From assembly GCA_903904335.1 (NCBI GenBank), contig CAIVCF010000100.1, forward strand, positions 1 through 45,205: 45,205 bases of DNA. The letters run 5' to 3'. Positions 3,463 to 20,140 of the stretch are shown piece after piece. Every line of letters begins with the position of its first letter. Positions within the stretch are counted from its first letter, which is position 1. Under the pieces are notes generated by a model, which made no database searches, had not been told where the DNA came from, and saw nothing but the letters and a program-made list of their open reading frames with translations. The translations under genes were made by a program, and so were the position numbers. This DNA comes from an uncultured Chitinophagaceae bacterium (GTDB lineage Bacteria; Bacteroidota; Bacteroidia; Chitinophagales; Chitinophagaceae).

Positions 3463-3545
3463 CCAAGGATTAATTGAAAAACTACTATGAACCCGACCAA
3501 GGAATTCAAGTTTTTCTTATTTACTTAACCTTAGATAATAAAAGT

Positions 3546-6500
3546 ATGAAAAAAACTAAACCTGAGAGTGCATTTAACAATTCGGGCATTCTTAAAGTCT
3601 TGCTGTTTATGAAACTAACCGTTGCCATACTTCTCATTTCGCTTGTACAAGTCTCCGCGAAAGGATTGGCCCAATCAAAAGTTAGCCTTAAATTAAATTC
3701 TGTAGAACTTAAAAAAGTTTTGATTCAAATTGAGAAAAAAAGCAGTTATCGTTTCCTTTATAACGATGATGCCATCTCATTAACAAATCCCAAAGTGGAT
3801 ATTAATGTAGAGAACATGCTGGTAACAGATGTTTTAAACTCAATTTTTGCCGGCACAAATCTTACTTATAAAGAATTGGGGCACAAACTGATCGTATTGT
3901 CTGCAAAAGACAACCTTATTGCTGATATCAAAATCATAGGTAGGGTATTAGGATCTAATGGCGAAGCCGTTCCCGGAGCAACAATTAGAGTGAAAGGAAC
4001 AACTGTTGTTACATCAGCCGATGTAAATGGTTATTATTCTATCGTTGCCCCTGATAATGCAACATTGGTTATTTCATCAGTTGGCTTTGATCAGAAAGAA
4101 ATCGCTATCGGCGGTAAAAAAGAAATAAATGTATCATTAAAAGAATCCGAAAAGGTGTTGGATCAGGTAGTGGTGATAGGTTATGGTACAGCTAATAAAA
4201 GAGATCTGACAGGCTCAATTGTTAAAGTATCAGGCAAAGAAGTGGCTGACAGACCCAATACAAATCCTATTGCTTCTTTACAAGGTAAAGTTGCAGGCTT
4301 GTATGTAGTGAATAATGGTGATCCCGGAGCAGCTCCAGATATTCGTATTCGTGGAACAGTAAGTATCGGGCAAGTACATCCTTTGTATGTAGTTGATGGT
4401 ATTTTCAATGATAATATAGATTACTTAAATCCAAATGATATTGAATCAATAGAAGTGTTGAAAGATCCTTCTTCATTGGCGATCTTTGGAGTGAAAGGTG
4501 CTACCGGTGTAATCGCAATAACAACTAAAAAAGCAAAAGTTGGACAAACAACAATCAACTTTAATACCTCATACGGATTTAAGAAATTAGTGGATAAAAT
4601 TAAACTGGCAAATGCTTCTCAGTTCAGCACATTGTTTGCTGAAGAAAATGCCAATAATAATGTATCTACTCCTGATTATTCTGCATTAACTGCCAATACA
4701 GATTGGATCGATGCTGTAACAAGAGTGGGTAATTTCAGTAATACGGGTTTAAGTATTTCTGGAAGTACTGAAAAAAATAAATTCAATTTTGGAGCAAGTT
4801 ATATTTCTGATCAGGGAATTGTGAAAAATCAGGAATTGTCTAAAATCATTCTTTCTTTGAGTGATGAATTCAAGGTTAGCAAAGGCATTAAGTTGGGTGT
4901 TAATTTTAATACTGCCAGAACGCATAATCCTTATGATGCAACATGGGTATTAAACTCCGCCAGACAAGTAATGCCTCAAGTGTCTGCTTTACCTCAAACA
5001 TTTACAGTTGCTGATCCATACACAGGCGTTGTAGGGCCAAAAAGTATTTATTCCGGCTTAGATGTTGCGCTACAATCTTCAGGTGTTGTAAATCCATTAC
5101 TGCAATTACAAAACGAATGGGATAGAACAATCGATTATAATAACAGATATGTAGGAAGTGTGTATACTGATATCAATTTCTTGAAATATTTCAATTTCAG
5201 AGCAACATGGTATGGTGATGTAAGTACACAGGATAAACGTAAATATGTTCCATTGTACTATGCATTTAATCCGATGAATAACACTCCGTATTTATCTTCT
5301 TCACAAACTTCGTTTACAGAAAATGTGAATGACTGGAAGAAATTCCAACAAGATTATCTGCTTACTTTCAAAAGGGTTTTGGGTGATCATAGTATAACTG
5401 CATTAGGTGGTTTTACAACTTATTATAGCGGTAGTTTTTACAGACAAGTTTCTGTTAAACAGGGAACCGATGCTGCAAGCTTACCCATTCCTAATGATCC
5501 AAGATTCTGGTATGTAAGTTCAGGTCCTTGGGGTGTAGTAGATCCTACAGGTACCAACTCTTCACAAAGTGAATACTCCACAGTATCTGCTTTCGGCCGT
5601 ATTTTATATAATTACAAAAGCAAATATTATTTGAATGCTTCTTTACGTAATGATGCATCTTCTCAAATCCCGGTTCAAAACCGCAACCAGTTGTTTTGGG
5701 CATTAGGCGCTGCTTGGGAAATCACTAAAGAAGATTTCATGAAAGATCAAAAAGCATTTGATTATCTGAAATTAAAAGCTTCAACAGGTGTATTGGGAAA
5801 CCAAACAGCATCGATGTTAGACGGAACTCCGCTTCCTTATCCGTCTTATCCTAATTTGAATACAGGGGTCAATGCTGTATTCGGAACAAATCTTTTTGCT
5901 GCTGCTCAACAGTCATATATTGCCAACCCTAATTTGAAATGGGAAAATGTAAATGCTTCTGAGATCGGAATTGAGGGTAATGCATTCAATAACCGTTTGC
6001 ATTTTGAGTTTAACTATTACAGTAAAATAACCAACAATTTGATGACTTATGTTGACAGATCAGCGATCGGTTTACAGAATGAATTGATCAATGGTGGCAG
6101 TTTAAAGAACTGGGGTGAAGAACTTTCCGCAACATGGAACCAAAAAATAAATAAAGACTTTTCATTATCATTTGGCGGTAACATCACTTTCATGAAGAAC
6201 CAAGTGGTTAGTTTGGCAAGCGATCTTCCAAATGGGTTCTTGAGCAGACAATTCATGAACAATGGTAGTGCTGAAAGTAGAACAATGGTTGGTCAGCCAA
6301 TCGGTTCTTTCTTTGGATACACAGTAGCCGGTTTATATCAATCTTATGCTGATATCTTAGGATCACCTGTTGCTTCTTCAATAGGATCATACAGACCCGG
6401 AGATTTTAAATTCAAAGACATTGCCGGTCCCGGTGGTACAGGCCCTGATGGACAAATTACCGCCGATGACAGATCTGTTATTGGTAATCCAACACCCAAG

Positions 6501-6980
6501 TTTATGTACGGAGGTACAATCAACCTTACATACAAGAGATTTGCCTTAGGTATTGATGTTGGTGGTGTTTATGGTAACAGCATTTTCAGAACATGGGGAT
6601 CTCTGGAATCTCCTTTCCAAAGAGTAAACTATGCTGCATTTAAAATGAACAGATGGCATGGTGCAGGAACTTCAAATTGGGAACCGATTATCAGTCAGGG
6701 AGACAGAATCAATTATAATGGATCTACCTATAATATTGAAGATGGTAGTTATTTCAGAATTAGAAATGTACAATTAGGTTACACACTTGATCCAAAGCTG
6801 TTGGCGAAGTGTAAAATAACAAATCTGAGATTATTTGCCAACATTCAGAACCTAAAGACATGGAAAAACAATAATGGCTATAGCCCTGAATATGGTGGTG
6901 ATGCTACTGCATTCGGATATGATAATGGAGGTGGTGCCATTCCAATGGTTACAACTTTCGGTCTGAACGTAACATTTTAA
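3546..6980 (+). CDS. SusC/RagA-family TonB-linked outer-membrane porin with STN domain
   Basis: This is the outer-membrane importer for oligosaccharides captured by SusD, energised through TonB. The ATG at 3546 (MKKTKPE) is preferred over the in-frame TTG at 3474; it gives 1144 residues and puts the hydrophobic signal segment (LLFMKLTVAILLISLVQVSA) about 18 residues in. Next come an STN (secretin/TonB N-terminal) domain at about 35-105, a carboxypeptidase-regulatory-like fold at about 130-200 (VLGSNGEAVPGATIRVKGT), a TonB-box/plug region beginning VVVIGYGTANKRDLTGSI, and a long beta-barrel ending in aromatic TTFGLNVTF. The STN domain is the part expected to signal to FecR. The susD gene follows after 11 bases. 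Confidence 0.96.
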   Translation: MKKTKPESAFNNSGILKVLLFMKLTVAILLISLVQVSAKGLAQSKVSLKLNSVELKKVLIQIEKKSSYRFLYNDDAISLTNPKVDINVENMLVTDVLNSIFAGTNLTYKELGHKLIVLSAKDNLIADIKIIGRVLGSNGEAVPGATIRVKGTTVVTSADVNGYYSIVAPDNATLVISSVGFDQKEIAIGGKKEINVSLKESEKVLDQVVVIGYGTANKRDLTGSIVKVSGKEVADRPNTNPIASLQGKVAGLYVVNNGDPGAAPDIRIRGTVSIGQVHPLYVVDGIFNDNIDYLNPNDIESIEVLKDPSSLAIFGVKGATGVIAITTKKAKVGQTTINFNTSYGFKKLVDKIKLANASQFSTLFAEENANNNVSTPDYSALTANTDWIDAVTRVGNFSNTGLSISGSTEKNKFNFGASYISDQGIVKNQELSKIILSLSDEFKVSKGIKLGVNFNTARTHNPYDATWVLNSARQVMPQVSALPQTFTVADPYTGVVGPKSIYSGLDVALQSSGVVNPLLQLQNEWDRTIDYNNRYVGSVYTDINFLKYFNFRATWYGDVSTQDKRKYVPLYYAFNPMNNTPYLSSSQTSFTENVNDWKKFQQDYLLTFKRVLGDHSITALGGFTTYYSGSFYRQVSVKQGTDAASLPIPNDPRFWYVSSGPWGVVDPTGTNSSQSEYSTVSAFGRILYNYKSKYYLNASLRNDASSQIPVQNRNQLFWALGAAWEITKEDFMKDQKAFDYLKLKASTGVLGNQTASMLDGTPLPYPSYPNLNTGVNAVFGTNLFAAAQQSYIANPNLKWENVNASEIGIEGNAFNNRLHFEFNYYSKITNNLMTYVDRSAIGLQNELINGGSLKNWGEELSATWNQKINKDFSLSFGGNITFMKNQVVSLASDLPNGFLSRQFMNNGSAESRTMVGQPIGSFFGYTVAGLYQSYADILGSPVASSIGSYRPGDFKFKDIAGPGGTGPDGQITADDRSVIGNPTPKFMYGGTINLTYKRFALGIDVGGVYGNSIFRTWGSLESPFQRVNYAAFKMNRWHGAGTSNWEPIISQGDRINYNGSTYNIEDGSYFRIRNVQLGYTLDPKLLAKCKITNLRLFANIQNLKTWKNNNGYSPEYGGDATAFGYDNGGGAIPMVTTFGLNVTF

Positions 6981-6991
6981 TAATATTCTAA

Positions 6992-8587
6992 ATGAACCAT
7001 TATATGAAAAAAAATATTAAAATAATCGGGGGCCTGCTTTTATCGGCTACCTTATTTCTAACAATTTCAGGCTGCAGTAAATTTCTTGACAGACAGCCAT
7101 TAACTGCAACACTTAATGACTTAAATCAAGGGGCATTAGAATCTCAAAGTTTAGGCTTATACAATGCGTTAAGAAATGGCGCGAATTCCAGCTTGCCTTG
7201 GTTGGATTTTAACAGTATCAGAGATGATGATGCTCAAAAAGGAAGCAGCACTACAGATGGTGCAGAAATCAATACTGAGTTTGAAACATTTCAATATACC
7301 AAAGATGATTGGGCAACCGATTGGTATTGGAGCGATCATTACAATATGCTTAATCTATGTAATAAAGAATTGCATTGGGCAGATTCATTAAAAGTAACTG
7401 ATCCTGCATCTTTAAGAAATATAGGCGAAGCGCATTTCTTTAGAGCGTATGCATTTTTCGATTTGGTAAAAGCGTATGGCCAGGTTCCATTGATTAACTT
7501 TTATTATACAAATGCTGCAGATGGTATTAAACCAAAAGCATCCATTGCAGCTTTATATGCTCAAATTGATAATGATTTAGATTCAGCGTCAAAATTATTA
7601 CCATTAAATTGGGTAGTAGGAGGAACAAACAGATATCCCGGAAGATTAACCAGCGGTGCTGCCAATACTTTGTGGGCTCAAACTTATTTGTTCAGAGGAC
7701 AATGGGCTAAGGTAGTTGCACTTTGTAATACAGTGATCAGCTCAGGACAATATACATTGGATCCAAGCTTCACAGATATTTGGAAAGATGGATTGAATGG
7801 AGCCGGTAAAAACGGACCTGAATCAATCTTTGAAATGCAGGCTACTTGCGGCGCCAACGGAACGAATGATAATGGAGCCGACGGTTGGGGTACTTCTCAG
7901 AATGTAAGACAAGGTGGTGCCACTGTTGCATGGAATTTAGGTTGGGGATGGAATGTTCCAACAAAAGTGCTGCAAAATGCTTGGGATTCTACAGATCCAA
8001 GAAAATCAATGACCATCTTATATTCAGGCCAATCTGATGGCGGACCTTCAACTGGAGGTTATGGTGCAACACTTCCTCCTTATGCTCCGGGATCAGGACT
8101 TGACCAGCCTTATTGGAATAAAAAAGTGTACTCTGATCCTGCAATGCGCCAATACACCGGAAAAATAAATAGTAATGGCGGTGCAGATTGGATCAATCAC
8201 AGAATTTTACGTTATGCTGATGTGATTTTAATGTTGGCAGAAGCTTCTAATGAATTAGGTGATGGTGCAACAGCTGCTAAAAACTTAGAATTAGTAAGGA
8301 ATAGGGCAAGTGGTAATTTAGGTGCAGGTCGTACAATTTTACCTACTATTGCTTTTGTTAGCCAAGCTCAAATGAGAACTGCAATCAAGAATGAAAGAAG
8401 ATGGGAATTTGCAATGGAAGGTTACCGATTCTATGATTTAGTAAGATGGACACCTGCAACTGATGGTATTGATGCACCTAATGCATTGGGTGGATTAGGA
8501 TATACACCTAAAAATGCTTTGTATCCAATACCTCAACCAGCCATCAACTTATCTGGAGGAGTATTAGTACAAAATCCCAATTACTAA
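6992..8587 (+). CDS. SusD/RagB-family nutrient-binding outer-membrane lipoprotein
   Basis: This surface lipoprotein of about 527-531 residues sits over the SusC barrel as a lid and binds glycan. Starts at 6992 or 7004 are both possible; the second (MKKNIKIIGG) fits a signal peptide better. The lipobox is ISGC, with the acylated Cys at residue 24 from the 7004 start. SusD hallmarks include GEAHFFRAYAFFDLVKAYGQ in the TPR-like region, RYADVILMLAEASNELG, and the C-terminal ERRWEFAMEGYRFYDLVRW. Directly downstream of susC, it forms the binding/import pair of the locus. Which glycan it binds cannot be read from its sequence. Confidence 0.96.
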   Translation: MNHYMKKNIKIIGGLLLSATLFLTISGCSKFLDRQPLTATLNDLNQGALESQSLGLYNALRNGANSSLPWLDFNSIRDDDAQKGSSTTDGAEINTEFETFQYTKDDWATDWYWSDHYNMLNLCNKELHWADSLKVTDPASLRNIGEAHFFRAYAFFDLVKAYGQVPLINFYYTNAADGIKPKASIAALYAQIDNDLDSASKLLPLNWVVGGTNRYPGRLTSGAANTLWAQTYLFRGQWAKVVALCNTVISSGQYTLDPSFTDIWKDGLNGAGKNGPESIFEMQATCGANGTNDNGADGWGTSQNVRQGGATVAWNLGWGWNVPTKVLQNAWDSTDPRKSMTILYSGQSDGGPSTGGYGATLPPYAPGSGLDQPYWNKKVYSDPAMRQYTGKINSNGGADWINHRILRYADVILMLAEASNELGDGATAAKNLELVRNRASGNLGAGRTILPTIAFVSQAQMRTAIKNERRWEFAMEGYRFYDLVRWTPATDGIDAPNALGGLGYTPKNALYPIPQPAINLSGGVLVQNPNY

Positions 8588-8661: not shown

Positions 8662-9507
8662 ATGAATATCTATAACTCACTTAAATCAGTCCTTACCTTA
8701 TTGGTTTTGGGCATGATAATAACCAGTTGCCAAAAGCTTGACAGGCCTGCATTAGGTAACTATCCGCAAGATGCTAATGTTCCCGGCGGACCTTTAAAAT
8801 TTTATGCTGCATTTGATGGCACTACTTCAAATCCATTAATGAACGCAGTGGATAGTATCAGAGCCGATTTTCCTGCCAGTAACCCTTTAACTTCAATAAC
8901 GGGGATTTCCGGGCATGCAGTTCAGGGCGATGGTACTAAGCATATCCAATATGCTAACGCCAATGATTTTATTGCAACGGCCAGCAGTTTTTCACTTTCT
9001 TTCTGGGAAAAACGAAATGGCTCACCTAAGGCTAATTCAGCCTTCTTCTGTCATTTTGCATCATCTAATGGATACTGGACCGGTGGATCTGCAATGTTTG
9101 GATTATTTGATTGGGCATCTGTAAATACACCGGATTCTGCTGCATTAAAAGTGGATTGTATTGATGTTAATGGTAATGATAATTGGTTCCAATGGATTGG
9201 TAGTACAGCAGTAAAAGGTATTCAGGATAATAACTGGCATCATCTTGTTTTTATTTATGATGCTACTACATCTGTAATGACCTTGTATGTAGATGGTAAA
9301 GCAAATCCAAATACACAAGCATGGACCGGTCACGGAGCTATTAATATGGATGCAAGTAAGATCACAGGATTTGATGTTGGTGGATGTAGAAACACTCCTA
9401 ACATGGGTTGGGGACAAGATTGGGATGGTGGTTTAGATCAATTTAGATTATACAGTAAAGCTCTTTCTGCAGCTGAAGTTGCAGCCTTATATACCGGAAA
9501 GCAATAA
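8662..9507 (+). CDS. LamG/concanavalin-A-like surface lipoprotein (probable glycan-binding protein)
   Basis: This 281-residue lipoprotein has a signal peptide ending in the lipobox TSC (Cys23). From about residue 45 it has a single jelly-roll domain of the LamG/concanavalin-A type: LKFYAAFDGT, SFSLSFWEKRNG, NNWHHLVFIYDATTSVMTLYVDGK and a closing GLDQFRLYSKALSAAEVAALY. These are the regular landmarks of LamG_3-type domains. It stands where SusE/SusF-like surface glycan-binding proteins usually stand, right after susD, so a substrate-binding role is likely. No catalytic residues are recognised. The gene is followed by a strong terminator, so it probably closes the susCD transcript. Confidence 0.85.
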   Translation: MNIYNSLKSVLTLLVLGMIITSCQKLDRPALGNYPQDANVPGGPLKFYAAFDGTTSNPLMNAVDSIRADFPASNPLTSITGISGHAVQGDGTKHIQYANANDFIATASSFSLSFWEKRNGSPKANSAFFCHFASSNGYWTGGSAMFGLFDWASVNTPDSAALKVDCIDVNGNDNWFQWIGSTAVKGIQDNNWHHLVFIYDATTSVMTLYVDGKANPNTQAWTGHGAINMDASKITGFDVGGCRNTPNMGWGQDWDGGLDQFRLYSKALSAAEVAALYTGKQ

Positions 9508-9550
9508 CTTTTATTAGTGGGCTTTATAGACGTTTAGTGTTAAGTAAAAG

Positions 9551-9586
9551 AGGGCTGAACAATTTTTCAGCCCTTCTTTTCTTTTA
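9551..9586 (+). terminator. Rho-independent terminator after the susCD-lamG unit
   Basis: AGGGCTGAA (9551-9559) pairs with TTCAGCCCT (9566-9574), a 9-bp stem with a six-base loop, followed by the T-rich tail tcttttctttt. It separates the SusCD/LamG unit from the cytochrome-led operon, which must then have its own promoter in 9587-9631 or depend on readthrough. No clear TAnnTTTG element could be fixed there. Confidence 0.85.
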
Positions 9587-9631: not shown

Positions 9632-10858
9632 ATGTTTACAATAGTTCATTGCCGGCGATCTTTACAGATTCTATGTGCCATTTTCCTTTGCACATTTTTA
9701 TTTATCACATGCATTGACCGGGAATCAAAGAAAGTTAATTCCGGAATAAAATATGAGCAATATGCAGGCTCTTCCGCTTGTATCAATTGCCATAAAGACA
9801 TTTACAATTCGCATATACAAACTGCACATTATCTCACTTCTCAAAAAGCAAACGAAAAAAATATTAAAGGAAGTTTTAAAGATGGAGAAAACAGATTCTA
9901 TTTTAACGCTGCTACCTTTGTTGCTGAAGAAAAAAGAGGCGATCAATTATTTCAGGTAGAATATGTAAATGGTGAAGAAAAGAAATCTGAACCCTTTGAT
10001 ATTACAGTTGGTTCGGGAAAACGCGGACAAACTTATTTATATTGGGATCAAAATAAATTATTTCAATTACCTATCTCATATTTTACATCTGTTAATCAAT
10101 GGTCGAATAGCCCCGGGTTTTCAAATAGAATCATTTTCAAGCGACCCATCACTTCGCGGTGTTTGGAATGCCACAGCACTTATTTTGAAAAGACATCAAA
10201 AGAAGGCATAGAGCCGGAAGATTTTTCTAAAAAAAATATTATTTATGGAGTTGATTGTGAAAGATGTCATGGACCAGCAGCGCAACATGTAGATTTTCAT
10301 CAAAAGAATCCCAATGAAAAAAAAGGGCAGTTCATAATTAATCTCAATTCATTTACAAGAAAGCAAAAATTAGAATCGTGCAGGGTATGTCACGGCGGAA
10401 AAATCCCTAAAACAAAACCATCCTTCAGTTTTCAGGCCGGTGATAATTTGTCAGATTATTTTGCAATTGACACGATTGCCAAAGATGTTGCTGATATTGA
10501 TGTTCACGGAAATCAATATGGAATGATGATTGCCAGTAAGTGTTTTAAAATGAGTGAAATGACTTGTGGGTCTTGTCATAGTCCGCATGAAAATGAAACA
10601 GGAAAGATCACAACTTTTTCGCAGCGTTGCATGAATTGTCATAATGAAGAGCATAACAATTTTTGTAAAGCAAAAGAGAAGGTTGGAAAAAAAATAGTTA
10701 AAAATTGTATTGATTGTCACATGCCCGAATTGCCATCAAAGTCAGTGATGGTATTATTGCAGGGAGAAAGTACACCAACATTTGCATCTATGAGAGCTCA
10801 TTTCATTTCTGTGTATCCTGATGAAACAAAAAAAATCTTGGCAGCCAATAAAAAGTAG
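9632..10858 (+). CDS. Seven-haem c-type cytochrome lipoprotein
   Basis: This 408-residue exported protein has seven CxxCH haem-attachment motifs, starting at residues 50 (CINCH), 177 (CLECH), 209 (CERCH), 250 (CRVCH), 312 (CGSCH), 333 (CMNCH) and 359 (CIDCH). The N terminus is a hydrophobic signal with FITC as a probable lipobox (Cys27). About 120 residues without haem motifs separate the first and second haems. The overall look resembles cytochrome c554-like multihaem proteins found beside ASPIC/FG-GAP proteins in environmental Bacteroidota. It would carry electrons in the periplasm or at a membrane surface; partner and substrate are unknown. It is the first gene after the terminator and lies 50 bases upstream of the FG-GAP/ASPIC gene. 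Its presence in a glucan-hydrolase operon is unusual. Confidence 0.9.
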   Translation: MFTIVHCRRSLQILCAIFLCTFLFITCIDRESKKVNSGIKYEQYAGSSACINCHKDIYNSHIQTAHYLTSQKANEKNIKGSFKDGENRFYFNAATFVAEEKRGDQLFQVEYVNGEEKKSEPFDITVGSGKRGQTYLYWDQNKLFQLPISYFTSVNQWSNSPGFSNRIIFKRPITSRCLECHSTYFEKTSKEGIEPEDFSKKNIIYGVDCERCHGPAAQHVDFHQKNPNEKKGQFIINLNSFTRKQKLESCRVCHGGKIPKTKPSFSFQAGDNLSDYFAIDTIAKDVADIDVHGNQYGMMIASKCFKMSEMTCGSCHSPHENETGKITTFSQRCMNCHNEEHNNFCKAKEKVGKKIVKNCIDCHMPELPSKSVMVLLQGESTPTFASMRAHFISVYPDETKKILAANKK

Positions 10859-10908
10859 TTATGTCATCATTCATAAAAATATTCTTGTTAAATGTTTAAT
10901 GTTTTCGT

Positions 10909-13900
10909 ATGTATAAGATGAAAGTTTATTTTTCCTGTTTATTATTTTTGTTTTTTATATCCTGTCATCAATCAGATAAAGTATTTACAAGTTTACCTGC
11001 TTCAACCACTAATATCAAATTCGAAAATAATTTAGAGAAGAGAGAAGGCTTTGGAATTTTATATTATCTCTATTATTATAACGGAGGGGGTGTTTCAGTT
11101 GGTGATATCAATAATGACGGATTACCCGATATTTATTTTACCGCTAACAGCAAAGGGCATAATAAACTGTATTTGAATAAAGGAAATTATCAGTTTGAAG
11201 ATATCACTGATAAAGCAGGCGTGGCGGGCAGTTCAGACTGGTGTACCGGTTCAACGATGGTGGATATAAATGGAGATGGTTTATTGGATATTTATGTTTC
11301 ATCGGTTAATAATTCCTATGGACTTACGGGGCATAACGAATTATTTATTAATAATGGAGACGGAACTTTTACAGAAAGTTCTGCTAAATACGGATTAGAT
11401 TTTTCTGGTTATACCGTACAGACTGTTTTCTTTGATTATGATCATGATGGAGATATGGATTGTTTTATTTTAAATGAATCTCAACAGCCCAATCAAAATA
11501 TTGTAGACACAAGCCATCGTAGAAGTTTCGATAAAAATGCAGGCGATTATTTATTCAGGAATGATGTTAGCACAACAGGGAAATTCACTGATGTTTCTAA
11601 ATTGGCAGGAATCAATCAAAGTAATTTGGGATATGGGTTAGGGTTATCTGTTGCTGATCTGAATAATGATGGCTGGGATGATATTTATATCGGAAACGAT
11701 TTTCATGAAAACGATTATTATTATATCAATAATGGTGATGGAACTTTTACTGAAAGTGGTGCCAAGCATTTTAATCATTATTCACGCTTCAGCATGGGCA
11801 ACGATATTGCTGATTTTAATAACGACGGACAATTGGATGTACTTACTGTAGATATGCTTCCTCCTGATGAAAAAACTTTAAAGACTTACGGAAGTGATGA
11901 GCATAGCGATATTTATAATTATAAAATAACGCATAACGGCTATCAACCACAATTCTCAAGAAATTGTTTGCAAAGAAATAATGGTAACGGCAAAACCTTT
12001 AGTGATATAGGTTTGATAGCGGGAGTATCTGCAACAGATTGGAGCTGGAGTCCTTTGATGGCCGACTTTGATAACGATGGTAATAAAGATATTTTTATTT
12101 CAAGCGGAATTGTAAAGCGACCTGTTGATCTCGATTATGTTCGCTTTGTTTCGAGTTTAGCGGCACAAATAAACAGGAACGCATCTACTAAATGGGATGA
12201 AGCAACATTAGAAAAAATGCCGGAAGGAAGTTCTTATTGTTTTATGTTTAAAGGAGATGGTGATGGTGTGTTTCACGACATAGGAAAAGATTGGGGCTTG
12301 ATGGACAAAAAAGGATTTTACAATGGTGCTGCTTATGCCGATTTGAATAATGATGGCAATTTAGATCTTATCGTGAATTCATTGAATTCAAAAGCCGTCA
12401 TCTATAAAAACAATACACAAAACAAAAATCATCTTACCATCAATTTTAAAGGAGATGGGTTTAATAAATTCGGAATTGGTGCTAAAGCTTATGTGTTTAC
12501 AAAAAATAAAATGCAGTACGAAGAATTAATGCTTACTAGAGGTTTTCAGTCTTCAGTAGAACCACGATTACATTTCGGATTAGATACAATAAAATCAATC
12601 GACAGTATTTTAATTGTTTGGCCTGATCAAAAATATCAGGTACTCAAAAATGTTCCTATCAATAAACAATTATCAGTTGTTCAAAAAGATGCTGCCAATA
12701 AATTTGACTATAACAATTTCTTTCCTCCAAAAAAAGAATCACTTGTTAATATCACAGATCAAATTAAGTGCGATTGGAAACATGAAGAAAATGATTTCAA
12801 TGATTTTAATAGACAATATTTGATTCCTCATAAAGAAAGCACACGGGGGCCCAAGATCGCCGTTGGGGATGTAAATAAAGATGGCTTGGAAGATTTTTAT
12901 GTTTGCGGTGCAAAAGGACAACCAGGTGCATTAATGATCCAACAACCGAATGGGAATTTTGTAAGATCAGACACTGCTTTATTCAATCGATTCAGGATTT
13001 GCGAAGATGTGGATGCTGTTTTCTTTGATGCCAATGGTGACGGCTTTCCTGACCTCTGGGTAGTAGCTGGTGGAAATGAGATGCCCTCCAGTGGAATATC
13101 CAATGCAGATAGACTTTATTTGAACGATGGCAAAGGTCATTTTACTTATTCGGCAAAAGCGTTTCAACAAGAATTCTGGAATAAATCATGTATCGCTGTT
13201 GCAGATATCGATCACGATGGGGATTTAGATGTTTTTATCGGACATTTTACTGATCAACAGAAATATGGGTTGCCCCGTAATTCTTATTTATACATTAATG
13301 ATGGAAAAGGGAAATTCGATATTGCAGATATCAAAACGATGAACCTCATGCAGCTTGGCATGGTAACATCTGCATCATTCACTGATCTGAATAATGATGG
13401 TTGGCCTGATCTGGTTGTAACCGGCGAATGGATGGGCGTAAAAATCTTTATGAATCATCAAGGAAAATTTGTTGAAACAGAAATTCCAAATTCAACAGGA
13501 TTATGGCAAGGATTGTTTGTTACAGATATTAATGGTGATGGGTATCCTGATATACTTGCCGGCAACTGGGGACATAATTCTAAATTATGGGCTGGTAAAA
13601 ACGGTCCTTTAAAATTGTATGTAAAAGATTTTGACAACAACGCAACTTTAGAACAGATCATGTGCTATACAATCGATGGAAAAGAATATACTTTCTTGCC
13701 AAAAGATGAATTAGAACAATCATTGCCCGTATTAAAGAAAGCATATCTGAGTTATGGTGAAGTGGCCGGAAAAACTGTTCAGTATATGTTCTATGATCTC
13801 TTTAAAGATTATGTTGAATTAAAAGCTGAAACATTAGGCTCTGCCTGTTTTATAAATGACGGCAAAGGAAATTTTAAAAAGCAAGACTTACCATTTAATC

Positions 13901-14190
13901 AACAGTTATCGCCGATATTTTCTTTTCAAAAAATTCCGGGCACAAACAACTTTATTACGGGCGGAAACTTTTTGGATGTTGTTCCTTATGAAGGTTATTA
14001 TGATGCAGCAGCAGTAACTTCATTTGAAATCAATACATCAAAAAATAGTATCAGCATGGGCAATGATAAAGTGATTGATACAAAAGGGCAGGCAAGAGAC
14101 TTGAAATGGATTCATTCAGCAAAGTATGGTAATGTATTAATGGTTGCCAAGAATAATGACAGGATTGAATTTTACGGAATTTCAAAATAG
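10909..14190 (+). CDS. FG-GAP/VCBS repeat and ASPIC/UnbV domain lipoprotein
   Basis: This large lipoprotein (1093 residues) has a lipobox FISC near residue 19. It carries about twelve calcium-binding DxNxDGxxD repeats, such as GDINNDGLPDIYF, ADLNNDGWDDIYIG, GDVNKDGLEDFYV and TDINGDGYPDILAG. These form two probable beta-propellers. Between them, at about 510-590, is an ASPIC/UnbV domain (NHLTINFKGDGFNKFGIGAK, then LMLTRGFQSSVEPRLHFGLD). Such proteins are often encoded beside SusCD pairs and multihaem cytochromes in Bacteroidota, but their biochemical role is not settled. Surface binding or scaffolding is plausible. Its stop codon is 13 bases from the first GH144 start, so the two are co-transcribed. 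Confidence 0.9.
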   Translation: MYKMKVYFSCLLFLFFISCHQSDKVFTSLPASTTNIKFENNLEKREGFGILYYLYYYNGGGVSVGDINNDGLPDIYFTANSKGHNKLYLNKGNYQFEDITDKAGVAGSSDWCTGSTMVDINGDGLLDIYVSSVNNSYGLTGHNELFINNGDGTFTESSAKYGLDFSGYTVQTVFFDYDHDGDMDCFILNESQQPNQNIVDTSHRRSFDKNAGDYLFRNDVSTTGKFTDVSKLAGINQSNLGYGLGLSVADLNNDGWDDIYIGNDFHENDYYYINNGDGTFTESGAKHFNHYSRFSMGNDIADFNNDGQLDVLTVDMLPPDEKTLKTYGSDEHSDIYNYKITHNGYQPQFSRNCLQRNNGNGKTFSDIGLIAGVSATDWSWSPLMADFDNDGNKDIFISSGIVKRPVDLDYVRFVSSLAAQINRNASTKWDEATLEKMPEGSSYCFMFKGDGDGVFHDIGKDWGLMDKKGFYNGAAYADLNNDGNLDLIVNSLNSKAVIYKNNTQNKNHLTINFKGDGFNKFGIGAKAYVFTKNKMQYEELMLTRGFQSSVEPRLHFGLDTIKSIDSILIVWPDQKYQVLKNVPINKQLSVVQKDAANKFDYNNFFPPKKESLVNITDQIKCDWKHEENDFNDFNRQYLIPHKESTRGPKIAVGDVNKDGLEDFYVCGAKGQPGALMIQQPNGNFVRSDTALFNRFRICEDVDAVFFDANGDGFPDLWVVAGGNEMPSSGISNADRLYLNDGKGHFTYSAKAFQQEFWNKSCIAVADIDHDGDLDVFIGHFTDQQKYGLPRNSYLYINDGKGKFDIADIKTMNLMQLGMVTSASFTDLNNDGWPDLVVTGEWMGVKIFMNHQGKFVETEIPNSTGLWQGLFVTDINGDGYPDILAGNWGHNSKLWAGKNGPLKLYVKDFDNNATLEQIMCYTIDGKEYTFLPKDELEQSLPVLKKAYLSYGEVAGKTVQYMFYDLFKDYVELKAETLGSACFINDGKGNFKKQDLPFNQQLSPIFSFQKIPGTNNFITGGNFLDVVPYEGYYDAAAVTSFEINTSKNSISMGNDKVIDTKGQARDLKWIHSAKYGNVLMVAKNNDRIEFYGISK

Positions 14191-14203
14191 GATAATTTTT
14201 TTG

Positions 14204-15886
14204 ATGAAAACGATCGTTTGTTGTCTTGCATTTTTAATGATGGTATCTGCAGGTTGTAAAAAATCTTCAGATGCTTCGCAGCCGATTGTGACGCCAGCTA
14301 ATTTTAGTTTGATGACTTATAGTGTTGATGCTGTATCTGTGCCAACAAATGCGTATAATGTTGGCATAAGTCCAGTTATAAAATTTCAGTTTTCTGCAGC
14401 AATCAGTCGGCAAACCGTTTCATCCAATATTGCATTGAACGACGGTGTTTCCGGCGCAACTATTGCCTGTGCTGTTTCTTATCAAAACGGAGATAGTGTT
14501 GTGATACTGCAACCATCATCATCATTATTGTACTTGAACAGATACACTGCATCAGTGGCAACGTCGTTGAAATCCAGTGCCGGCGGGTCTCTTATCGGAG
14601 GAACTAATTTTACATTTTTTACAAAGATTGATTCAACTGATAAGTTCACTCAAATATCAGACAGCGCATTATTAGATTTAGTTCAAAAGCAAACATTTAA
14701 ATATTTCTGGGATTTTGGTCATCCGGTTTGCGGCATGGCGTTAGAAAGAAATAACGGCGATAATAATGTGGTTACTTCCGGTGGCAGTGGTTTTGGAATC
14801 ATGGCAATGATTGTTGCTGCCAACAGAGGATTCATTTCAAGAACAGATGCAGTTACAAGATTAAATACCATCACCAATTTTTTAACTACAAAATGTACGC
14901 GTTGGCATGGTGCTTTTTCGCATTGGATAAATGGCAGCACCGGCGCAACTGTTCCTTTCGGAAATAATAATGGCGCTGATATTGTGGAGACATCTTATTT
15001 ATTGCAGGGATTATTAACTGCACGACAATATTTCAACAGTAATACCGATGTAAACGAAATAAAATTACGCGATAGCATCAATTCAATTTGGAATGTTGTT
15101 GAATGGAATTGGTTTACACAAAACGGCGCAACAAAATCTATCTATTGGCAATACAACCCATCATATACTGCTACATCTGATATTTGGAGCATTGCTGTTT
15201 CAGGATGGAATGAAGCATTGATCACTTATGTGTTGGCCGCATCTTCAACAACACATGCCATCACAAAAGATGTATATGATATTGGTTGGGCAAATAATGG
15301 AAATATTAAAAATGGTTCAAACTATTACGGAGTAGCACTTCCACTGGGGCAAGCTTATGGCGGTCCTTTATTCTTTGCGCATTATTCTTTTTTAGGGATC
15401 AACCCAAATGGATTAAGTGATGCTTATGCAAATTATCAAACACAAAATATTGCTCATTCAACGATCAACTATAATTATTGTACTACTAATCCAAAATCAT
15501 TTTTTGGATATAGCAGTGCATGCTGGGGATTAACGGCCAGTGATATTTCAGGAGGATATACCGCAAGCTCACCAACAAACGATGTAAGTGTGATTGCACC
15601 AACAGCTGCATTGTCTTCCATGCCATATACACCAACTCAATCAATGAATGCATTGCGTTTTTTTTATTACAAACTCGGCGATAAGGTCTGGAAAGATTAT
15701 GGCTTCATTGATGCATTCAGTTTAAACAGTTTGTGGTTTGCAGGTTCATATCTTGCCATTGATCAGGGACCGATCATTTGTATGATCGAAAATTATCGAT
15801 CAAAACTTTTATGGAATTTATTTACAAGTTGTCCTGAAATTAAAGCAGGAATGAAAAATTTAGGATTCACAGCACCATATTTATAA
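14204..15886 (+). CDS. GH144 endo-beta-1,2-glucanase-type lipoprotein with N-terminal Ig-like domain (paralogue 1)
   Basis: The start is placed at the ATG at 14204, giving MKTIVCCLAFLMM and lipobox SAGC (Cys18). An upstream in-frame ATG at 14144 lies inside the preceding gene. Residues about 30-140 form a bacterial Ig-like (Big_5) domain. From about 155 comes the glucoamylase-like (alpha/alpha)6 domain of GH144: QKQTFKYFWDFGHPV, SGGSGFGIMAMIVA, GADIVETSYLLQGLLTARQY, SGWNEALITYVLAAS. Compared with the two downstream paralogues, the loop before GADxVE reads FGNNNGAD instead of FGR.DDGAD. It therefore lacks two acidic residues and is one residue shorter. Asp259, Glu262 and Glu337 are retained. 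As a lipoprotein it may act at the cell surface. Activity and linkage are inferred from family. Confidence 0.88.
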   Translation: MKTIVCCLAFLMMVSAGCKKSSDASQPIVTPANFSLMTYSVDAVSVPTNAYNVGISPVIKFQFSAAISRQTVSSNIALNDGVSGATIACAVSYQNGDSVVILQPSSSLLYLNRYTASVATSLKSSAGGSLIGGTNFTFFTKIDSTDKFTQISDSALLDLVQKQTFKYFWDFGHPVCGMALERNNGDNNVVTSGGSGFGIMAMIVAANRGFISRTDAVTRLNTITNFLTTKCTRWHGAFSHWINGSTGATVPFGNNNGADIVETSYLLQGLLTARQYFNSNTDVNEIKLRDSINSIWNVVEWNWFTQNGATKSIYWQYNPSYTATSDIWSIAVSGWNEALITYVLAASSTTHAITKDVYDIGWANNGNIKNGSNYYGVALPLGQAYGGPLFFAHYSFLGINPNGLSDAYANYQTQNIAHSTINYNYCTTNPKSFFGYSSACWGLTASDISGGYTASSPTNDVSVIAPTAALSSMPYTPTQSMNALRFFYYKLGDKVWKDYGFIDAFSLNSLWFAGSYLAIDQGPIICMIENYRSKLLWNLFTSCPEIKAGMKNLGFTAPYL

Positions 15887-15898
15887 AAATTTAAGTTT

Positions 15899-17368
15899 AT
15901 GAACATCAATAATATCAAACAAAAATTATTTTTTTTACTCATTTTTATTTCAGTTGGATTGGCCGATGCTAATTGTTCAAAAAGCAATAACGATAGCACT
16001 ACGCCAGTAACTCCTATAGCGCCTGTTATACCTCCTGCACTTGTAAACAATGTTGATTTTTGGTATACATCCAACGATCAATCAGTGCTTTTACAAAAAC
16101 AATCTGGTATTCTTTCTTTTGGTACTGTTACGAACAGTAATCCGTTTATTGATGTTGATTCCACACAAACCTTTCAAGCGATTGATGGTTTTGGTTTTAC
16201 ATTAACCGGAGGAAGTGCTTATGTGATCAATCAATTAAGCAGCTCTGATAAAACAAATTTGTTGCAGGAATTATTTGGGACATCTTCAATATCAATTGGC
16301 ATCAGTTATTTGCGAATAAGCATTGGTGCATCTGATCTGAATGCATCTGTTTTTAGTTATGATGATATGCCAAGTGGACAAACTGATCCTACTCTTGCCA
16401 ATTTTAGTTTGAATAATGATATGACTGATCTGATTCCATTATTGAAACAAATCATTGCTATCAATCCCAACATAAAAATCTTAGGATCACCCTGGTCACC
16501 GCCGGTTTGGATGAAAGACAATAACAGTTCGATTGGCGGAGGTTTGCAAACACAATATTATAATGTGTATGCACAATATTTTGTAAAATATATTCAGGCG
16601 ATGAAGGCACAGGGCATAGTCATTGATGCTATCACTCCACAAAATGAACCATTGAATCCCGGTAATAATCCAAGTATGGTATTATCGGCAGTTCAAGAAA
16701 CCAATTTCATTAAAAATAGCCTTGGACCTGCATTTCAGGCGGCATCCATCACAACAAAAATAATTGTGTACGATCATAACTGCGATCAACCGACTTATCC
16801 AACAACCATTTTAAGCGATGCAACTGCTGCTGCTTTTGTTAATGGTTCCGCCTTTCATTTGTATGCAGGAGATATCAGTGCATTATCAACTGTTCATAAT
16901 TTATATCCTGACAAGCAAGTATATTTTACAGAACAATACACTGCATCATCAGGAAATTTTGGCGGCGATTTGATGTGGCATGTAAAAAATGTGATTATCG
17001 GTTCAATGCGTAACTGGAGTCGCAATGCATTGGAATGGAATTTAGCTAACGATCCAAGTTTTGGCCCGCATACGGTTGGTGGTTGTACAACTTGCAAAGG
17101 TGCATTGACGATTGGTTCCGGCATTACAAGAAATGTTGGATATTATATAGTTGCACATGCTTCGAAATTTGTTCCTGCAGGATCTGTTAGAATCTACAGT
17201 AATATTTCGGGCAATTTAAACAATGTTGCATTCTTGACACCATCAGGCCAAAAAGTTTTGATAGTGGAAAATGATGGAGCCAGTGCAGCATCATTTAATA
17301 TTCGAATGAATGGTAAATGGGTAGCAACAGCATTAACAGGCGGTGGCATTGGAACTTATATCTGGTAA
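15899..17368 (+). CDS. GH30-family glycoside hydrolase (probable beta-1,6-glucanase or related, lipoprotein)
   Basis: This 489-residue protein has a hydrophobic signal and a possible lipobox ending in Cys26 (ADANC; Asn before Cys is unusual). The (beta/alpha)8 domain shows GH30 landmarks: FQAIDGFGFTLTGGSAY, LRISIGASD, ILGSPWSPPVWMKDN, the acid/base Glu250 in TPQNEP and the nucleophile Glu345 in VYFTEQY. A small beta-domain closes the C terminus (VAFLTPSGQKVLIVENDG). The profile fits GH30 subfamily 3, whose characterised members cut beta-1,6-glucan, but subfamily cannot be proven by eye. It lies 12 bases after GH144 paralogue 1, in the same operon. With GH144 partners it suggests that the substrate has both beta-1,2 and beta-1,6 linkages, or that the locus serves two glucans. 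Confidence 0.9.
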   Translation: MNINNIKQKLFFLLIFISVGLADANCSKSNNDSTTPVTPIAPVIPPALVNNVDFWYTSNDQSVLLQKQSGILSFGTVTNSNPFIDVDSTQTFQAIDGFGFTLTGGSAYVINQLSSSDKTNLLQELFGTSSISIGISYLRISIGASDLNASVFSYDDMPSGQTDPTLANFSLNNDMTDLIPLLKQIIAINPNIKILGSPWSPPVWMKDNNSSIGGGLQTQYYNVYAQYFVKYIQAMKAQGIVIDAITPQNEPLNPGNNPSMVLSAVQETNFIKNSLGPAFQAASITTKIIVYDHNCDQPTYPTTILSDATAAAFVNGSAFHLYAGDISALSTVHNLYPDKQVYFTEQYTASSGNFGGDLMWHVKNVIIGSMRNWSRNALEWNLANDPSFGPHTVGGCTTCKGALTIGSGITRNVGYYIVAHASKFVPAGSVRIYSNISGNLNNVAFLTPSGQKVLIVENDGASAASFNIRMNGKWVATALTGGGIGTYIW

Positions 17369-17401: not shown

Positions 17402-18721
17402 ATGGTCAGAATAAAAAAAATATTTCTCTCAATTATTTCAATTCTGTTTTTATCTGCAATAACGATTGCACAAAATAAAATCAGCATTCAGAAAAATTTA
17501 TCAGACGATCAATTATTGGATCTTATTCAAAAACAAACTTTCAAATATTTCTGGGACTTTGCACATCCAGTGAGCGGTATGGCAAGAGAAAGAAGCAACG
17601 CGACTTTTGGATATGGAGATGAGGTTGTAACCACCGGTGGCAGCGGTTTTGGTGTGATGAGTATTATTGTTGCAACTGAAAGAAAATGGATCAAAAGAGA
17701 TACCGCTGCCAAGCATTTATTGAAGATGATCAGATTTTTAGAGAAAGCAAATTCCTATCATGGCGCATTCCCGCATTGGATGAATGGAGCAACAGGAAAA
17801 ACAATTCCTTTCGGCAGAAAAGATGATGGAGCCGATTTGGTTGAAACATCATATTTATTTGAAGGATTATTATGTGTACGACAATATTTTAATGCGGATA
17901 ATAAAATTGAAACTGAATTAAGAAACAGAATCGGTTGGATGTGGAGTGAGATAGAATGGAATTGGTTTACAAAAGGTGAAGACGTTTTGTATTGGCATTG
18001 GAGCCCCAACAATGGATGGGCCATGAATTTTCCGGTGCATGGATTTAATGAGTGTTTAATTATGTACGTGTTGGCGGCATCGGCAGAACGTTATCCTGTT
18101 AATGCTTCAGTATATCATAAAGGTTGGGCACAAGGTAACTTTTTTAAGAATGGAAAAACGTTTTACGGATATAAACTACCATTAGGTTTCGATTATGGCG
18201 GACCCTTATTTTTTTCGCATTATTCTTTCCTTGGATTAAACCCGAAAGGCTTGAAAGATGAGTATGCAGATTATTGGTTGCAGAATAAAAATCACTCTTT
18301 AATTAATTATTCTTATTGCGTTGATAATCCAAAAAAGTTTATAGGGTATGGAGAAAATTGTTGGGGATTAACTGCAAGCGACACTTATAATGGTTACGAT
18401 GCTCATTCGCCAACAAATGATCATGGAACTATTTCTCCAACAGCTGCCATCTCTGCAATGCCCTACACACCGGAGCTTTCCATGAAAGCACTAAAACATT
18501 TTTATTACGATATGGGGGATAAAGTTTGGGGCGAATATGGTTTTATTGATGCATTCAATGAAACAAAGAACTGGTATGCTAAATCATATCTGGCAATTGA
18601 TCAGGGACCTGAAATTGTAATGATAGAAAATTATAGAACCGGATTAATGTGGAAATTATTCATGAGTTGCCCTGAAATAAAAAAAGGGTTGAACAAATTA
18701 GGATTCGAATATTCAAAATAA
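17402..18721 (+). CDS. GH144 endo-beta-1,2-glucanase-type hydrolase (paralogue 2)
   Basis: This 439-residue enzyme has a cleavable signal peptide (hydrophobic to about residue 23, TIAQ) and no lipobox, so it is probably periplasmic. It is a single GH144 domain: QKQTFKYFWDFAHPVSGMAR, TGGSGFGVMSIIVATERKWI, PFGRKDDGADLVETSYLFEG, HGFNECLIMYVLAAS, AIDQGPEIVMIENYRTGL. Asp141, Asp145, Glu148 and Glu217 have the same spacing (4, 3 and 69) as the key acidic residues I recall for the Chitinophaga GH144 enzyme CpSGL (135, 139, 142, 211). All expected acidic residues are present, so this is the best candidate in the locus for an ordinary endo-beta-1,2-glucanase. It lies 33 bases after the GH30 gene and 6 bases before paralogue 3. 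Confidence 0.9.
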   Translation: MVRIKKIFLSIISILFLSAITIAQNKISIQKNLSDDQLLDLIQKQTFKYFWDFAHPVSGMARERSNATFGYGDEVVTTGGSGFGVMSIIVATERKWIKRDTAAKHLLKMIRFLEKANSYHGAFPHWMNGATGKTIPFGRKDDGADLVETSYLFEGLLCVRQYFNADNKIETELRNRIGWMWSEIEWNWFTKGEDVLYWHWSPNNGWAMNFPVHGFNECLIMYVLAASAERYPVNASVYHKGWAQGNFFKNGKTFYGYKLPLGFDYGGPLFFSHYSFLGLNPKGLKDEYADYWLQNKNHSLINYSYCVDNPKKFIGYGENCWGLTASDTYNGYDAHSPTNDHGTISPTAAISAMPYTPELSMKALKHFYYDMGDKVWGEYGFIDAFNETKNWYAKSYLAIDQGPEIVMIENYRTGLMWKLFMSCPEIKKGLNKLGFEYSK

Positions 18722-18727
18722 ATAACG

Positions 18728-20140
18728 ATGCTTCGCCGCCTTTTTATTTTTATTATTGCTTGTTTTTTTTCGATGAATTTGTTTGCGCAACATTCAGCAC
18801 AAAAAAATTCTATTGCATCTGTTGGTATTATTAAAAATATTTCTGATTCTGCCTTGCTTGATATTATTCAAAAACAAACATTCCGATATTTCTGGCATTA
18901 CGCACATCCGGTAAGTGGATTGGCAAGAGAGAGAAGCAATACGGTTAAAGCAGAATATTATTGGGATTATATCAATGAAGCTGATGATGAACCTAATTTG
19001 AGTAAGCACACATTTGGCGAAGAAGCTTGTGCGATCGGTGGTTCAGGCTTTGGTATCATGAGTGCCATTGTTGCAGTGGAAAGAAAATGGATCGATAGAG
19101 ATACAGCCATCAAACGTTTAATTAAGATCGTCGATTTTTTAATTAAGGCAGATTGTTATCATGGCATCTATCCGCATTTTATGAATGGTGCAACCGGTAA
19201 AACCATTCCATTCGGAAGATTGGATGATGGCGCGGATATTGTTGAAACATCTTACTTAATGATGGGTTTACTCTCAGCACGCCAATATTTTAATCACCAT
19301 AATATTCAGGAAAAATATTTCAGAAAACGGGTGCAGCAAATTTGGGATGCTGCTGATTGGAATTGGCATAGCAAAGGTGATAATAAATTACTGTATTGGC
19401 ATTGGAGCCCGAGTAATGATTTTAATATGAACTTTCCTGTGTATGGTTATGATGAAGCATTGATTACTTATATCGTTGCAGCATCATCGCCATATCATTC
19501 TATTTCAAAAGAGTTGTATGAAAATTCTTGGGTGAAAAGTTCAAGCTGGAAGAATGGAAAAAAATATTACGGATTCGAATTGCCGCTCGGCAATTTTGAA
19601 AAAGGGGGGCCTTTATTTTTTGAGCAATATACTTATATGGGAATTGATCCCAATGGTTTGAAAGATGATCATGGAATTGCTTATGCATTACAGGCGAAAA
19701 ATCACACATTGATTAATCGGGCCTATTGTATTGAGAATCCAAATCACTTTAAAGGCTATGGAGAAAATTGTTGGGGATTAACGGCCGGCGACAGTTATAA
19801 AGGTTATGTGGCACATTGCCCTGAAGTTGATAAAAGTGTTATCCAGCCTACAGCAGCGCTCTCTTCATTTCCTTACACACCCGAATATTCAATGAAAGCA
19901 TTGAAACATTTTTATTATGATCTTGGTAATAAAATTTGGAGTGAATATGGTTTTGTAGATGGATTCAGTGAAACAAAGAATTGGTATGCAAAATCACATT
20001 TGGCAATTGATCAGGGGCCAATCATTGTGATGATTGAAAATTACCGAACAGGTTTGTTGTGGAAACTATTTATGAGTTGTGATGAAATAAAAAATGGGTT
20101 AAAAAAATTAGGATTTGAAAATTCATATATCAAGAAATAG
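18728..20140 (+). CDS. GH144-family hydrolase (paralogue 3, with loop insertion)
   Basis: This 470-residue protein has a signal peptide ending near NLFAQ. It is clearly paralogous to the previous gene along its whole length: QKQTFRYFWHYAHPVSGLAR, DDGADIVETSYLMMGLLSAR, GENCWGLTAGDSYKGY, AIDQGPIIVMIENYRTGLLW. It differs in three ways. There is an insertion of about 25 residues after ARERS (about 71-99, rich in acidic and aromatic residues). The conserved EWNW becomes DWNW. The GxNE motif becomes GYDE. The acidic residues Asp166, Asp170, Glu173 and Glu243 are kept, so it is probably active. The loop suggests different product length or subsite architecture from its neighbour. Tandem duplication followed by divergence is the simplest origin. 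Confidence 0.9.
   Translation: MLRRLFIFIIACFFSMNLFAQHSAQKNSIASVGIIKNISDSALLDIIQKQTFRYFWHYAHPVSGLARERSNTVKAEYYWDYINEADDEPNLSKHTFGEEACAIGGSGFGIMSAIVAVERKWIDRDTAIKRLIKIVDFLIKADCYHGIYPHFMNGATGKTIPFGRLDDGADIVETSYLMMGLLSARQYFNHHNIQEKYFRKRVQQIWDAADWNWHSKGDNKLLYWHWSPSNDFNMNFPVYGYDEALITYIVAASSPYHSISKELYENSWVKSSSWKNGKKYYGFELPLGNFEKGGPLFFEQYTYMGIDPNGLKDDHGIAYALQAKNHTLINRAYCIENPNHFKGYGENCWGLTAGDSYKGYVAHCPEVDKSVIQPTAALSSFPYTPEYSMKALKHFYYDLGNKIWSEYGFVDGFSETKNWYAKSHLAIDQGPIIVMIENYRTGLLWKLFMSCDEIKNGLKKLGFENSYIKK

Follow-up and report, generated by a model that had tools for sequence, protein, structure and literature searches.

In a 45,205-nucleotide stretch of DNA from an uncultured Chitinophagaceae bacterium (contig CAIVCF010000100.1, assembly GCA_903904335.1), which we call the window, a polysaccharide utilization locus (PUL) encodes a seven-haem c-type cytochrome lipoprotein, here named CYT7 (9632..10858, + strand). 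Comparing the window with genomes of its family and with a class-wide sample, we identified CYT7 as a repeatedly kept component of PULs built around a SusC–SusD pair (SusCD). PULs are usually modelled as systems for binding, hydrolysis, and import, and CYT7 suggests that glycan use in Bacteroidota can also involve a redox step, either periplasmic or at the outer membrane. Our preferred reading, to which we assign a probability of roughly one in three, is that CYT7 is a redox lipoprotein on the periplasmic face that takes electrons from the oxidation of imported glucan fragments.

Retention of CYT7 beside SusCD Pairs

Among 147 genomes of the family, 67 contain some CYT7 match and 38 contain CYT7 at ≥36% identity; the 49 copies in the latter form our CYT7 set, and rows at ≤31% identity, mostly open reading frames (ORFs) of ~630–770 residues, were dropped. 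In the searches for SusD, for the ASPIC/FG-GAP lipoprotein encoded next to CYT7 (ASPIC), and for glycoside hydrolase (GH) family 30, the best 5–10 candidates per genome were scored, and SusD matches at E 1e-60 or better number 77 in 69 genomes. CYT7 lies within 10 kb of all 26 SusDs that are at least 60% identical to that of the window and of 0/51 more distant SusDs, the 60% limit having been chosen after a natural gap between 61% and 55% was noticed. This close-SusD group keeps CYT7 in 26/26 genomes, though the proteins have diverged to 45–76% identity. An earlier note on the window, made from the sequence alone, had tied the cytochrome to the PUL and had named non-conservation of the gene pair with PULs in relatives as evidence that would speak against a functional unit; the tie extends to every close-SusD genome and to other SusCD loci in other lineages, and CYT7 is kept beside PULs in relatives.

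The position of CYT7 is flexible. Its slot varies, and in 4/26 close-SusD genomes it lies on the opposite strand, where it should have its own promoter. In a sister PUL type, CYT7 is flanked by two GH30 genes or lies further downstream (L015, L016, L017, L018, L020, L021, L059; L and G numbers denote loci and genomes, respectively). Genes of the PSCyt1/PSCyt2/PSD1 (DUF1549/1553) type follow CYT7 in part of this sister type (L016, L017, L018, L020), where L017 and L020 also show DUF1501 and a DUF2231-PSCyt1 type protein. In named genomes, 63 loci with CYT7 relatives were obtained, mostly from Chitinophagaceae, with Sphingobacteriaceae and a few others, including Acidobacteriota and Planctomycetes; the strains bearing CYT7 include named members of Chitinophaga, Pedobacter, and Flavisolibacter, among them the cultivable Flavisolibacter longurius (L019), where CYT7 occupies the slot seen in the window, and Chitinophaga rupis (L034), which has a GH30 PUL. 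The CYT7 of G024, from the genus of the window, is identical to that of L012, an ‘uncultured Chitinophagaceae’ record. Chance or contamination was rejected because many relatives keep both the gene order and the reading frames. In Chitinophaga pinensis YS-16, the gene is broken into two ORFs, one with three CxxCH motifs and the other with four (L055, 9974-11217). A CYT7 relative at ~26–30% identity, with ORFs mostly of 630–700 residues (e.g., L094, 5851-7788; L095, 5560-7554), occurs in 23/147 genomes, never together with CYT7, and 1/23 of these genomes has Gluconate_2-dh3.

The association recurs away from the PUL type of the window. In the class-wide sample, 14/395 genomes have a CYT7 match at E 1e-60, and 11 of these lie outside the family (12 copies). 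We assembled 33 case windows of 3.6–18 kb from 11 of these 12 copies and 22 family copies away from the main PUL, a set that excludes those next to a close SusD or, as in G038, next to the ASPIC orthologue. They were compared with 39 control windows of 17 kb, chosen by one fixed rule and in most cases 150 kb away from CYT7 on its own contig (L161, of an initial 40, was dropped as too short). Eighteen families were tried, and all case–control p values are one-sided and uncorrected. SusD is present in 15/33 CYT7 windows vs 4/39 controls (p 8e-4), and in 11/28 vs 4/39 (p 0.006) after like loci of one genus are collapsed and L099 is left out. Less marked differences were obtained for GH5 (6/33 vs 0/39, p 0.007), ASPIC (7/33 vs 1/39, p 0.015), and GH30 (6/33 vs 1/39, p 0.03, which becomes 5/32, p 0.06, without L099), while SusC is not clearly enriched (12/33 vs 8/39, p 0.11). 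The idea that GH30 alone unites the loci outside the main PUL was rejected, SusD being the stronger factor.

Individual loci bear out this pattern, with SusD and CYT7 only 37, 41, and 89 bp apart in three genera. The gene order is SusC-SusD-GH16-GH30-GH30-CYT7-GH5 in L112, SusC-SusD-GH30-GH5-CYT7 in L114 and L115, and SusC-SusD-CYT7-GH30-GH30-GH5, behind a divergent regulator, in L098; L172 and L177 read SusC-SusD-CYT7, L175 reads SusC-SusD-unknown-GH16-CYT7, and in L169, SusC-SusD-ASPIC is convergent with CYT7. Two further neighbourhoods deserve mention. In two families, CYT7 adjoins a DUF7133 protein whose C-terminus matches c-type cytochromes, weakly so in the first (L119, 4656-8803; L024, 7507-11239). 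In L123 (293-6854, genome G122), a GH123_N protein, CYT7, an NIF3-family protein, and a Gfo/Idh/MocA oxidoreductase are encoded in a run of genes on the same strand.

A quick CYT7 tree of 87 long rows (83 different) was built without L055, whose ORF is split, and without L056, L057, and L062-L064. Its context labels rest on homology to the genes of the window and on our own reading of the loci, so a PUL with a distant SusCD pair may carry the label N (outside PULs). One supported clade of 49 rows unites all 38 type-A copies, seven type-B PUL copies, and four others, and the type-B rows form one clade. In approximately unbiased (AU) tests of groups named after the loci had been inspected, a single clade of the four GH30-PUL (D) rows of a second, 33-row clade together with L032 was rejected (p-AU 1.2e-7).

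Fold, Haem Order, and Membrane Side

CYT7 has 408 residues, with CxxCH motifs at residues 50, 177, 209, 250, 312, 333, and 359 and a lipobox cysteine at residue 27 that is conserved in 80/81 aligned relatives; the seven-haem lipoprotein described in the earlier note is thus borne out by both counts. It is the sole PF13435 match in the window’s own genome. Membership of the MtrA/DmsE decahaem family was rejected, as scores fall under the curated cut-offs: 49.2 vs 192.2 bits for TIGR03508 and, for the GSU2203 family NF041028, 49.8 vs 325 bits.

An AlphaFold2 model from 53 sequences (pLDDT 87, pTM 0.82) gives CYT7, with its seven haem motifs, a scaffold that, as modelled, is like those of OcwA, MccA, and c554. 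Foldseek matched the model to OcwA (E 7e-10), and VIA-align gave Z 18.2 over 305 residues at 3.6 A for OcwA (6i5b), well above unrelated rows, followed by Z 13.0 for OmhA (6qvm) and Z 10.2 for MccA (4rkm); the value for c554 (Z 5.2) is within the range of unrelated rows. Strands at residues 88–159 form a beta-sheet domain between haems 1 and 2. The C-terminal three-helix bundle is absent from the model, which past haem VII has strands and one helix (396–407). By our own reading of a profile alignment, haems I–VII of CYT7 correspond to OcwA haems 1, 2, 3, 4, 6, 7, and 8.

Across the 81 aligned rows, five distal histidines (66, 219, 292, 319, and 390) are present in all or all but one, a histidine between haems VI and VII is present in 69/81, and Cys304, which belongs to no haem motif, is invariant. 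Non-haem residues of the beta-sheet domain are also held at 99–100% (Q108, G127, W157, S160, P161), more than a plain wire needs, which suggests that CYT7 has a site and is not a wire alone. In the OcwA paper, haems 2 and 5 of OcwA are described as open, and haem 2 is described as the active site in OcwA, c554, and MccA (PMC6703420). In our preferred reading, haem 2 would be the probable open site of CYT7.

CYT7 is an outer-membrane lipoprotein that probably faces the periplasm, as judged indirectly from the residues behind the lipobox. After the lipobox cysteine, SusD rows mostly read xKFLDR and LamG rows mostly QKxDRP, and where the lipobox was recognised, position +3 is basic in 15/15 SusDs and 28/28 LamG proteins vs 2/80 CYT7 rows; CYT7 rows also lack a fixed acidic residue after the cysteine. 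The comparison presumes that surface lipoproteins bear export motifs at this position. The absence from CYT7 of the pattern common to SusD and LamG hints at a periplasmic face, so redox-linked surface assembly, one of the meanings that the earlier note had offered, is not supported.

A Proposed Redox Step and Its Alternatives

In the mechanism that we propose, CYT7 would carry out a redox step that acts on the oligosaccharides brought in by its SusC–SusD or takes place beside them, accepting electrons from periplasmic oxidation of imported glucan fragments and handing them on to the respiratory chain. An oxidative step on the glycan, as such, is possible but unproven. Candidate electron donors exist in the genomes concerned: Gluconate_2-dh3 sugar dehydrogenase subunits occur in 38/38 CYT7 genomes vs 65/109 others, and the window’s own genome (3.1 Mb) carries Gluconate_2-dh3, GMC oxidoreductase, and DUF1080 genes on other contigs. 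DUF1080 genes are also found close to CYT7, 117 bp upstream of it in L022 and ~0.7 kb downstream in L029/L034; seven of the beta-glucan PUL loci contain Gfo/Idh/MocA or TIM-barrel genes.

Several observations weigh against this reading. The enrichment of 3-keto type genes that the DUF1080 and Gfo/Idh/MocA neighbours led us to expect was rejected, sugar-oxidation families being found near CYT7 in 6/33 windows vs 4/39 controls (p 0.27). No sugar dehydrogenase or DUF1080 protein turned up among the window PUL proteins scanned with Pfam, and the 3-keto type cluster of the same genome has its own one-haem cytochrome. The Gluconate_2-dh3 contrast shrinks to 36/36 vs 43/50 (p 0.04) among GH30 genomes, so the link is confounded with a glycan-degrading lifestyle. 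The lipobox argument for the periplasmic side is weak: a lipobox was recognised in only part of the SusD set (13/28 rows are without one), and ASPIC shows the surface pattern only partially, with a basic +3 residue in 25% and an acidic +5 residue in 42% of 36 rows. The model contains neither haems nor partners, and haem–ligand pairs rest on the alignment. As to the neighbourhood counts, SusD alone survives correction for 18 families (8e-4 x 18 ~ 0.015), the controls come from some case genomes and some genomes whose sole copy is in the main PUL, and the heaviest counts are phylogenetically dependent. In the tree, the 38 type-A rows may all share a single origin, which the AU test does not reject (p-AU 0.35), and the second clade has scattered PUL placements, with 21/33 rows labelled as lacking a PUL. 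The PUL of G091 (L102), as read, has no CYT7, which lies on another contig (L100). Because PULs of relatives persist without CYT7 and most of the second clade is labelled in this way, CYT7 is an accessory, optional PUL component.

The haem arrangement itself feeds a rival that we consider unlikely, namely that CYT7 uses an open haem 2 to reduce small molecules such as nitrite, hydroxylamine, or peroxide, giving protection or an electron sink during glycan uptake and leaving the sugar untouched. According to the OcwA paper, OcwA can reduce nitrite and acts on hydroxylamine in both directions, by reduction and by oxidation, with haem 2 as the active site there as well as in c554 and MccA (PMC6703420). 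Only five distal histidines are conserved for seven haems, alongside the invariant Cys304, and a MauG-type di-haem peroxidase adjoins CYT7 in L028. Such a reductase would leave the repeated link with SusCD unexplained; the scanned proteins of the PUL included none of the nitrogen or sulfur cycle, and given the histidine between haems VI and VII, haem 2 is a candidate for the open haem.

A second rival, rather unlikely in our judgement, would make CYT7 a free-standing redox gene that sits near PULs because these regions accept insertions, with no function in glycan use. The 27/87 tree rows labelled N, the PULs found without CYT7, the strand switch in four of the 26 close-SusD genomes, the changes of slot, and the split copy of L055 are what such a hitch-hiker would leave behind. 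Complete retention in the close-SusD group despite the divergence of its proteins, and the excess of SusD near CYT7 over control windows elsewhere, are not.

A role for CYT7 in reducing metals, such as Fe(III), that enter bound to the glycan, or in extracellular electron exchange, as proposed for OcwA, is improbable: CYT7 does have its best fold match in this cell-surface terminal reductase and is a lipoprotein, but its post-lipobox residues are unlike those of SusD and LamG, and no porin–cytochrome partner was noticed in the loci read, where no dedicated search was made. A role as electron donor of an AA10 lytic polysaccharide monooxygenase (LPMO) acting on the glucan, for which Cellvibrio japonicus offers a precedent in Cbp2D, whose c-type cytochrome domain can initiate the reduction of copper in Lpmo10B (PMC12542752), is nearly excluded, as LPMO_10 (PF03067), the one LPMO family searched, was found in 1/147 family genomes (G101) and in neither the 38 CYT7 genomes nor the window’s own.

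We therefore retain electron uptake from periplasmic glucan oxidation as the preferred role. A broader proposal, that heptahaem cytochromes are an unrecognised accessory class of SusCD lipoproteins coupling oligosaccharide import to periplasmic oxidation, we regard as doubtful; if true, some PULs would be respiratory devices drawing electrons from glycans before the sugars enter the cytoplasm. CYT7 provides a defined gene with which to test for a redox step in the named Chitinophaga, Pedobacter, and Flavisolibacter strains.

The ASPIC Protein, a Separate SusCD Companion

The gene downstream of CYT7 (10909..14190, +; Pfam FG-GAP_3 and UnbV_ASPIC) encodes a lipoprotein of 1093 residues with twelve DxxDG-type FG-GAP motifs and a central UnbV_ASPIC domain at 522–588, in agreement with the earlier description of about twelve FG-GAP repeats flanking an ASPIC/UnbV domain. 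Its model (pLDDT 70) is poorer than that of CYT7. A fold search of the PDB returned many propellers, so only the comparison with CRTAC1 (9etn) was used: residues 22–604 align at Z 37.1, and the C-terminal half forms another propeller.

The earlier note had presented cytochrome and ASPIC as a pair. The two do meet in other lineages, CYT7 having ASPIC or FG-GAP neighbours in L113 and L116-L118, which belong to another family, as well as in L168 and L169, but the pair is not fixed. In the 147 family genomes, our ASPIC set comprises 37 orthologues at ≥57% identity, among the matches listed; CYT7 lies within 10 kb of 22 of them and is missing from that range in 15, two of these at contig ends, which also counts against our reading of CYT7. 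Conversely, there are CYT7 loci without ASPIC (e.g., L026, G084, G119) and loci with ASPIC after SusCD without CYT7 (L101, L102, L108). We thus reject an obligate pair, and ASPIC is a separate, CRTAC1-type companion of SusCD. In L113, L116, L117, and L118, all from one genus, a cluster of SusD, an ASPIC protein of ~1190 residues, a PAP2-type protein, and an FG-GAP protein of ~517 residues is convergent with CYT7 (Pfam annotation from the L117 copies only); the PAP2 protein is presumably akin to vanadium haloperoxidases. An acidobacterial locus (L061, 1020-7125) places an ASPIC-like protein, a protein that is TPR-like by eye, a molybdopterin oxidoreductase (PF00174), and a 568-residue CYT7 relative within 7 kb.

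Organization of the Window PUL

The whole cluster (1585-24178) lies on the + strand and combines a SusC–SusD pair, a regulator, and carbohydrate-active enzymes in one strand-consistent run. It opens with an extracytoplasmic function (ECF) sigma factor (1585..2169; Pfam Sigma70_r2/r4_2) and a FecR-type anti-sigma factor (2242..3390; FecR and FecR_C), followed by a SusC/RagA TonB-dependent transporter (3474..6980; TIGR04056, 723.8 bits vs a cut-off of 368.25), a SusD glycan-binding lipoprotein (6992..8587; SusD_RagB and SusD-like_3), and a LamG-domain lipoprotein (8662..9507; Laminin_G_3), which resembles a surface glycan-binding protein by position and has QKLDRP after its lipobox cysteine. CYT7, with Pfam matches to Cytochrome_C7 and Cytochrome_C554, and ASPIC come next. 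The six GH genes that the earlier note had placed behind these two are all there: a GH144-type (PF10091) glucanase lipoprotein with Big_5 (14204..15886), a GH30 (15899..17368) whose nearest NCBIfam model is an endo-1,6-beta-glucanase (376 bits, under the cut-off of 700), two further GH144-type (PF10091) hydrolases (17402..18721 and 18728..20140), a GH43 with an F5/8 type C domain (20148..21878), and a GH3 of the beta-glucosidase type (21893..24178), each assigned with Pfam. We take PF10091 to be GH144. A terminator-like hairpin with a 14-bp stem lies downstream of GH3 (24256..24287, - strand).

Short gaps throughout, as first described, hold from CYT7 onward (50, 13, 12, 33, 6, 7, and 14 bp, in order); directly before it, the LamG–CYT7 gap is 124 bp and contains a terminator-like hairpin (9550..9575, +) with a 10-bp stem and a T-rich tail. 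A similar hairpin is visible by eye in the corresponding gap of 7 of the 8 relatives listed, out of 12 loci (L002, L003, L004, L009, L010, L012, L026; not L007). Since the hairpin precedes it here and in relatives, CYT7 is placed just past a probable attenuation point of the SusC-SusD-LamG transcript; it thus heads the GH set, yet from behind this probable point. A strong promoter at 14190–14204 had been named as evidence against a single unit; around this 13-bp gap, what we presume to be the Bacteroidota promoter consensus is matched only with one mismatch per box, a pattern that occurs ~0.5 times per 136 bp across the window. A transposase (DUF4372, DDE_Tnp_1; 145-1314, -) lies directly upstream of the sigma factor, and a second c-type cytochrome family match, PF02276 CytoC_RC, lies outside the PUL (30062-30574, +).

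Comparison with Known Systems

CYT7 shares with OcwA, OmhA, and MccA of the NrfA superfamily its overall fold, the order of seven of the nine OcwA haem motifs, and the beta-sheet domain, which, according to the OcwA paper (PMC6703420), OcwA and MccA have in common and other NrfA-family proteins lack. It differs from them in having seven haems, vs nine, eleven, and eight, respectively, with OcwA haems 5 and 9 finding no counterpart in the alignment; in the absence of the C-terminal three-helix bundle from its model; and in being a Bacteroidota lipoprotein encoded in PULs. ASPIC is like CRTAC1 in its N-terminal propeller and ASPIC domain and unlike it in having a second propeller and in being a bacterial lipoprotein encoded downstream of SusCD.

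The earlier remark that electron-transfer proteins fall outside the standard PUL model has a known exception, as the porphyran degradation genes include a P450, a ferredoxin, and a ferredoxin reductase (PMC10033563). As in that system, where an oxidative sugar step takes place, electron-transfer proteins are encoded in the window with glycan-degradation enzymes; unlike the P450 monooxygenase, CYT7 is a c-type multihaem lipoprotein and implies no methyl-ether substrate. Redox proteins that serve glycan use have precedents in the porphyran P450/ferredoxin set and in Cbp2D/E of Cellvibrio. Among the matches listed by a literature search that did not cover the term ‘heptaheme’, none deals with a multihaem cytochrome inside a PUL; PMC12175321 mentions a multihaem cytochrome and a PUL term, in passages that treat them separately. 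The LacABC/DUF1080 3-ketoglycoside pathway (PMC9007349) likewise performs periplasmic glycoside oxidation, and candidate genes for it lie elsewhere in the window’s genome; its genes were not found in the window PUL. Finally, the window resembles Bacteroidota GH30/GH144 beta-glucan PULs in its ECF/FecR pair, SusC, SusD, LamG lipoprotein, and GH144-type, GH30, and GH3 enzymes, and is set apart from them by a seven-haem cytochrome and an ASPIC double-propeller lipoprotein.

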